Shown here: one piece after another, positions 26,533 through 28,000 of the stretch
Layout: every line of letters starts with the position of its first letter
Position numbering within the stretch: position 1 is the stretch's first letter
Origin: Chloroflexota bacterium
GTDB taxonomy: Bacteria; Chloroflexota; Limnocylindria; QHBO01
Reading direction: 5' to 3'
NCBI GenBank assembly: GCA_025699005.1
Contig: JAILWI010000002.1
Location: 151,403-215,402 of the forward strand
DNA length: 64,000 nt
Made by a program: the position numbers and the translations under genes
The notes under the pieces: generated by a model
The model's database searches: none
What the model was told of the DNA's origin: nothing
The model's input: only the letters and a program-made list of their open reading frames with translations

Positions 26533-26562
26533 TTGACATGCAACTGGAAGGTTGCATAACAT
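26533..26562 (+). promoter_or_regulatory. arsR promoter: TTGACA - 18 bp - TAACAT
   Basis: A perfect consensus -35 TTGACA (26533-26538) and TAACAT (26557-26562) flank the operator. The -10 is followed by 7 nt and ATG 26570, so the mRNA should be leaderless. It is the best-matching promoter seen in the window. Confidence 0.75.
26538..26557. promoter_or_regulatory. ArsR operator, perfect inverted repeat
   Basis: ATGCAAC (26538-26544) and GTTGCAT (26551-26557) are exact reverse complements around TGGAAG. It fills the -35/-10 spacer, so binding of the ArsR product would block its own promoter. Confidence 0.8.
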
Positions 26563-26569
26563 GGGCGTG

Positions 26570-26878
26570 ATGAGCGCGACGTTCGACGCCGTGGCCGATC
26601 CGACGCGACGCCGGCTGCTGGACCGCCTGCGCGGCGGCGACAGCCTGTCGCTCGGCCAGCTGGCGGATGGTCTGCCGATGACGAGGCAGGCCGTCACGAA
26701 GCACCTCGATGCCCTCCGCGATGCCGGCCTCGTCCGGATCGAGCGGAGCGGCCGCGAGCGGCTGCACTCGCTCGAGGACGCGCCTCTGCGAGAGATCGCC
26801 GATTGGCTGGCGCCGTACGCCGCGGCGTGGGACGCGCGACTCGATCGGCTCCGTGAGCACCTGGAGGAGAACCCATGA
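26570..26878 (+). CDS. ArsR/SmtB-family winged-helix repressor
   Basis: A 102-aa regulator. ATFDAVADPTRRRLLDRL and LADGLPMTRQAVTKHLDAL form the DNA-binding winged helix, and the C-terminal helix (WLAPYAAAWDARLDRL) is the usual dimerisation element of the AHSA1-linked subfamily. No metal-binding CXC motif is present. ATG 26570 is set by the -10 hexamer 7 nt upstream; in-frame starts at 26552 and 26561 lie within the promoter. It overlaps the AHSA1-like gene as ATGA and is presumably autorepressed. Confidence 0.9.
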   Translation: MSATFDAVADPTRRRLLDRLRGGDSLSLGQLADGLPMTRQAVTKHLDALRDAGLVRIERSGRERLHSLEDAPLREIADWLAPYAAAWDARLDRLREHLEENP

Positions 26879-27312
26879 GCGACGCCACCACGACCGAGCT
26901 GCCCGCCATCGAGCGGACGCTGGAGCTCGACGCCTCGCCCGAGCGGGTCTGGCGCGCCATCTCCGACCCCGATGAGCTGGCCCGGTGGTTCCCGTAGCGC
27001 GCCGAGCTCGACCTGCAGCCTGGCGGAGATGGCCGCTTCTACTGGGACGGCCACGGCTGGTTCCCGATTCGCGTCGAGGCGGTCGATCCGCCGCGCTACC
27101 TCGCCTGGCGATGGGGCCTCGAGTCCGAGGCGGATCCGACCACCGATGCGACGTCAACCCTCGTCGAGTGGTGGGTCGAGCCGAGCGGCGAAGGGACTCT
27201 TCTGCGGATGCGCGAGTCGGGGTTCCACCAGGCGGAGCAGCGAGAGAACAACGACGGAGGCTGGACCTCCGAGCTCGCCGAGCTCGTCTCCCTCCTGGCC
27301 GCAAGGGCCTGA
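26875..27312 (+). pseudogene. SRPBCC/AHSA1-family protein interrupted by in-frame TAG
   Basis: Read from ATG 26875 (overlapping the arsR stop) the frame gives the AHSA1 start IERTLELDASPERVWRAISD and LARWFP, then TAG at 26995-26997. It continues in the same frame with RAELDLQPGGDGRFYWDG through IRVEAVDPPRYLAWRWG to TGA at 27312. The total would be 145 codons, the normal length. Codon use and homology resume without a shift, so this is one base change (a CAG, AAG, GAG or TGG codon would restore it) rather than a frameshift. It may be a true pseudogene, a sequencing error, or stop readthrough. AHSA1-like proteins are small ligand-binding partners of such ArsR repressors. Confidence 0.85.
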
Positions 27313-27330
27313 CCCTCGGCTCGCGCGGAT

Positions 27331-27362: not shown

Positions 27363-27380
27363 ACTGGACCGGCACCTTGT

Positions 27381-27399
27381 GAGTCACCTTGCGTGGGAT
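27381..27399 (+). repeat. Left arm of 19-bp inverted repeat
   Basis: Perfect partner of 27867-27885; separation between arms is 467 bp, too long for a simple transcription terminator. Confidence 0.95.
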
Positions 27400-27472
27400 T
27401 TGCTCAGTAGCCTTGCGCTCGCGAGCCGGCGCGCCGATGCTGCTTGCGCGAGCCGCGGCAGGGAGGACGTTC

Positions 27473-27841
27473 TTGTTGCCAAGCGTCGATGAGGTAGTTC
27501 TGGCGGTCTGTCGCCTTCCCCAGGACTTCTACGCCGCCAAGAATTCCGCCGTGGGCGATCTCGTCAGGTCCTCGGGCTATCCGGCCATCCGTTCGCAGCT
27601 CACGGTCGAGCGGCTGGCGGCATGTCTGCGATCGCATCCCGATTGGGTTGCGCAGTGGCTCGACTGGTCGGCCGGCAACCGGTCGTCACCGTCCTGGTAT
27701 GTGATTGAGGCGGACCAGGGCGGGTTCCACCTTGGGTTCTACGATGGCCAGAGGAGCGAGCCACCAGCGGTAATCACCGATCAAGCCATGGCCGTCGCGG
27801 AGTTCATTCACCGCTACCTCCAGCACATCTCGCCAAGATAG
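27473..27841 (+). CDS. Orphan hypothetical protein inside the inverted-repeat segment
   Basis: A 122-aa soluble protein that I do not recognise. It has a helical N-terminal half (LPQDFYAAKNSAVGDLVRSSG) and an alpha/beta end with SWYVIEADQGGFHLGFYDG and AVAEFIHRYLQHI, a shape seen in several small immunity-like families, but no motif supports a function. TTG 27473 is chosen because GGAGG (27462-27466) lies 6 nt upstream; earlier in-frame starts (27389, 27437) lack such a site and the first would lie in the repeat arm. The whole gene lies between the arms of the 19-bp inverted repeat. Confidence 0.6.
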   Translation: MLPSVDEVVLAVCRLPQDFYAAKNSAVGDLVRSSGYPAIRSQLTVERLAACLRSHPDWVAQWLDWSAGNRSSPSWYVIEADQGGFHLGFYDGQRSEPPAVITDQAMAVAEFIHRYLQHISPR

Positions 27842-27866
27842 GTCGTTCTTCACGACCGAAGTGGAG

Positions 27867-27885
27867 ATCCCACGCAAGGTGACTC
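27867..27885 (-). repeat. Right arm of 19-bp inverted repeat
   Basis: Exact reverse complement of 27381-27399, beginning 25 bp after the orphan gene's stop. Confidence 0.95.
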
Positions 27886-27940
27886 GTCAGGACCGGCAGA
27901 GGGTGTCCGGGACTGACGGCAGGACCCCGATCGGGCGTCC

Positions 27941-27946
27941 TACACT
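27941..27946 (+). promoter_or_regulatory. -10 element TACACT for the 28001 gene
   Basis: TACACT would start transcription near 27953, giving a leader of about 48 nt that contains GGAGG at 27986-27990. Confidence 0.4.
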
Positions 27947-28000
27947 GCGCTCGATCGGGGTGCCGAAGCTCGCCCCGGCACGAGTGGAGGGCTCTGCCTC

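Follow-up and report, generated by a model that had tools for sequence, protein, structure and literature searches.

Does a perfect 19-bp inverted repeat that closely brackets a single orphan gene in a Chloroflexota genome mark a mobile cassette, a regulatory arrangement or a coincidence? The repeat was found in a 64,000-nucleotide stretch of DNA (the window) on contig C12 of G000, a 2.57-Mb assembly in 30 contigs that is 94.5% complete. The original prediction described two exactly complementary arms, one 122-codon gene with a GGAGG ribosome-binding site between them, no recombinase or transposase inside, and a 9-mer on both sides outside the arms. We confirmed all of these readings, including the coordinates of the arms and their perfect complementarity (Table 1). 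By direct reading, the segment between and including the arms is about 505 bp long and encloses exactly one gene, which is intact and fills the space between them. Both arms are intergenic; the left arm is 73 nt upstream of the start codon and the right arm is 25 nt downstream of the stop codon.

Table 1. Features of the inverted-repeat segment and its borders, in positions of the window
Feature	Position	Strand	Remarks
9-mer GGACCGGCA, left	27366-27374	+	6 nt outside the left arm
GT	27379-27380	+	next to the left arm; a second GT (27886-27887) adjoins the right arm
Left arm GAGTCACCTTGCGTGGGAT	27381-27399	+	one half of the perfect 19-bp inverted repeat
GGAGG ribosome-binding site	27462-27466	+	6 nt upstream of the TTG at 27473; direct reading
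Orphan gene	27473-27841	+	TTG start, 122 codons plus stop, TAG at 27839-27841
6-bp hairpin GGTCGT-TCTTC-ACGACC	27841-27857	+	at the stop codon; lacks a T run
Right arm	27867-27885	-	exact reverse complement of the left arm
9-mer GGACCGGCA, right	27890-27898	+	4 nt outside the right arm; within a predicted hairpin

The orphan gene, which has a second TTG at 27476, is a real gene. A homologue of its protein, with 46% identity along almost its entire length, is located on contig C81 of G114 (PMXR01000064.1, 'Chloroflexi bacterium isolate fen_1026', a metagenome-assembled genome), and the protein is present in two of the 177 genomes of the class. No further homologue was found in the 177 class genomes, in 400 genomes of the phylum, or in plasmids and phages by tblastn. 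Scans of GTDB contigs and IMG/VR with peptide patterns also found none; since such scans detect only fairly close relatives, distant homologues may be missed. The blastn matches to Rhizobium plasmids (48 bp, 83%, E 0.01) were attributed to chance, with no protein match at E <= 1. The AlphaFold model of the protein, built from only two sequences, has a mean pLDDT of 85.9 and predicts a fold of six helices, a beta hairpin and a C-terminal helix. The protein matched no known domain or family in Pfam, PHROGs, NCBIfam or PADLOC, and its predicted fold had no match in PDB or among the viral models of BFVD (best E about 0.5). Weak profile matches to the oestrogen receptor, HapR and a TPR protein fell far under any cut-off and were discarded. 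The GC content of the segment is 63.2%, compared with 69.4% for the window (4th percentile among 505-bp stretches), and the GC3 of the orphan gene is 0.76, compared with 0.88 and 0.92 in two neighbour genes.

The homologue also bears on the arms. On its contig, the motif CCCATG-AAGGTGAC begins one base 3' of the stop codon and differs from CCCACGCAAGGTGAC of the right arm by a single substitution and a gap of one base. Shuffling gave p = 0.006 for the right arm against the 100 bp downstream of the homologue, while the similarity of the whole downstream sequences of the two genes was not significant (p = 0.13). Elsewhere in G114 the motif has no near copy, and the remaining matches have 3 mismatches. 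The likeness of this 3' motif to the right arm is suggestive, and its position adjoining the stop codon adds some weight. Because the contig ends at the ATG of the homologue, the left arm there is not visible. If real, a right-hand motif conserved beside the gene fits the cassette and the regulatory readings alike.

In the regulatory reading, which is the main rival, the arms would serve the gene as a pair of regulatory or RNA elements: either one regulator binds an operator at each end, or the 5' and 3' untranslated parts join in a 19-bp stem that protects or silences the transcript. The distances of the arms from the start and stop codons are in keeping with such elements, the motif of the right arm may have been kept beside the gene despite a protein divergence of 54%, and single-copy arms are expected of regulatory elements and less so of a transposon. 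However, operators tend to be short palindromes or to be imperfect, and a perfect asymmetric 19-bp match exceeds what regulation needs. Moreover, neither a match to a sigma-70-type promoter for the orphan gene nor an Rfam match or a regulator was found. On balance, we regard paired regulatory arms as possible, if doubtful.

It could also be that two unrelated 19-mers match by accident around an ordinary rare gene, although the original prediction held that the pair was not expected by chance. Analytically, 0.0012 perfect pairs of at least 19 bp are expected per 64 kb at a span of up to 505 bp, and 0.007 at a span of up to 3000 bp. Scanning 375 kb of the contig for arms at most 3 kb apart yielded two perfect 19-bp pairs, compared with about 0.1 pairs of at least 19 bp in second-order Markov copies, and the real DNA has some excess of inverted pairs over the model. 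Since the second perfect pair, with a GC of 0.89, lies in the same 375 kb, the length of the repeat by itself is weak evidence. On the other hand, the present pair is the only one of at least 16 bp in these 375 kb with an arm GC below 0.7, and at least 8 A/T positions, as in the present arms, are expected in only 0.7% of chance pairs. It is the AT-richer composition, the intergenic arms and the fit round one gene that convince, more than the length; the claim of the original prediction thus holds by composition and position, but not by length alone. An accident is favored by the other pair and by the many windows that a genome scan covers, but it has to contend with the 0.0012 pairs expected per window at this span, multiplied by 0.007 for composition, and with the similarity of the end of the homologue to the right arm. 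We consider it unlikely.

Further copies of the 19-mer and an empty site in related genomes, both named in the original prediction as findings that would support it, were not found. At up to 2 mismatches, the 19-mer had no other copy in its own genome, in 200 relatives or in the 177 class members. At 3 mismatches, scattered single matches occurred in the class at about the rate of a reversed-pattern control, and no inverted pairs were among them. The 16-mer core was present in ten IMG/VR contigs, with one copy each and no pairs; these were judged unrelated. No relative was found in which both flanking genes lie together: of these genes, G007 has retained the ArsR-SRPBCC pair alone and G016 the membrane gene alone. 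Without a relative of the same flanking gene order, no empty site was available for comparison. Two observations had been named as speaking against a cassette, namely that the 19-mer occurs nowhere else and that all relatives carry the segment at the same locus with diverged arms; the former agrees with our searches, whereas the segment is absent from this locus in relatives.

Ends common to an autonomous element were not found in the genome or its relatives at up to 2 mismatches, and no parent element was identified in the own genome among three transposase families. Transposase_mut and DDE_Tnp_1_2 had no match in this genome, and DDE_Tnp_1 matched one fragment (L059, G000:C25:100984-101256) within a 197-aa open frame; no inverted pair resembling these arms surrounds that fragment, which was rejected as the parent. 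If the segment were the relic of an insertion sequence or another mobile element, with the recombinase gene deleted and the orphan gene as its accessory, identical anatomy would remain, but there is no recombinase remnant between the arms and one intact gene fills the space, which makes a relic quite improbable. An invertible segment, in which a site-specific recombinase acts on the arms and turns the gene around, is very unlikely, since the perfect inverted repeats around a gene that has no detectable sigma-70-type promoter are set against the lack of a recombinase inside and of a second set of sites, and against the gene's own ribosome site.

The borders of the segment were also inspected for a target duplication. 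The 9-mer GGACCGGCA occurs four times on the plus strand and once on the minus strand of the window, and 0.9% of random 505-bp stretches have a direct repeat of 9 bp within 30 bp of each end. Its distances from the arms are asymmetric. It was not accepted as a target duplication, since it stands off from the arms and such a repeat arises by chance in about 1% of cases. The sole sequence that directly abuts both arms is GT, which is possibly a 2-bp target duplication, at about 1 in 16 by chance.

Other features were seen in the neighborhood. The SRPBCC (AHSA1-like) gene at 26876-27313 has an in-frame TAG at 26995-26997, flanked by the conserved residues P and R, at a place where the G007 counterpart has an Asp codon; it represents either a pseudogene or an assembly error. 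A palindrome, TGCAACTGGAAGGTTGCA (26539-26556), lies directly 5' of the ArsR-type gene and is perhaps its operator. In G007, the orthologous ArsR-SRPBCC pair lies between 50-nt direct repeats (L040:701-750 and L040:1658-1707) that are 80% identical and contain GGTTATGTCACTAACGATATA. A strong hairpin, CCCCGATCGGGCG...CTCGATCGGGG (27923-27960), which has a single copy in the window, is located upstream of the membrane-protein gene, and the region 27838-27960 folds with z = -4.1.

The term mobile insertion cassette is used for passenger genes that lie between the ends of an insertion sequence, and such cassettes are insertion-sequence derivatives (PMC5444012). MIC231 of Bacillus cereus and the qnrS2 cassette of the Aeromonas plasmid pAC3, the latter with inverted repeats of 22 bp, have passenger gene(s) between inverted repeats of about 20 bp and no transposase (PMC5444012), and the present segment likewise has matching terminal inverted repeats around a passenger gene and no transposase in the space between them. 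In contrast to these cassettes, neither a parent element nor a second copy of it was found, and there is no clear abutting target duplication; we do not file it as a mobile insertion cassette because a search for an autonomous element with the same ends found none. MITEs and the Tn3-derived TIMEs (PMC4133298) are similarly short and non-autonomous, with inverted repeats at both ends. MITEs have no coding sequence and are usually multicopy, whereas this segment is a single copy with an intact, conserved gene, and in both respects it departs from a MITE. As a small unit with a single orphan gene, the segment also resembles integron gene cassettes. Integron cassettes have one recombination site of another structure rather than matching terminal inverted repeats, and no integron-type recombination site was seen on reading the segment.

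Taken together, we propose, with a probability of about 0.5, that the segment is an acquired, single-copy, transposase-less cassette that resembles a mobile insertion cassette and is now probably immobile. Its repeats would be transposase ends that flank one accessory gene and were once recognized by a transposase supplied in trans. The insertion point would lie between the genes for the SRPBCC protein and the membrane protein, and the product of the cassette gene would be a passenger with no assigned activity. The segment is likely immobile now, because no parent element is detectable in its own genome. The mobile-type cassette of the original prediction is therefore retained in part: the anatomy, the absence of a recombinase inside, the lower GC content and the very patchy distribution of the gene argue for it, but the lack of further copies and of an empty site does not.

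A bolder proposal, which we consider improbable at present, is that this class of Chloroflexota has a new family of mobile cassettes with one gene each, to which the segment belongs. The ends of the family (GTCACCTT...TGGG) would be conserved between lineages, and an as yet unnamed enzyme would move its members. The present basis of this proposal is one locus and half of a second. If this is a cassette with conserved ends, single orphan genes would spread as transposase-less units in poorly sampled Chloroflexota, and the ends would provide a sequence handle for finding the enzyme.
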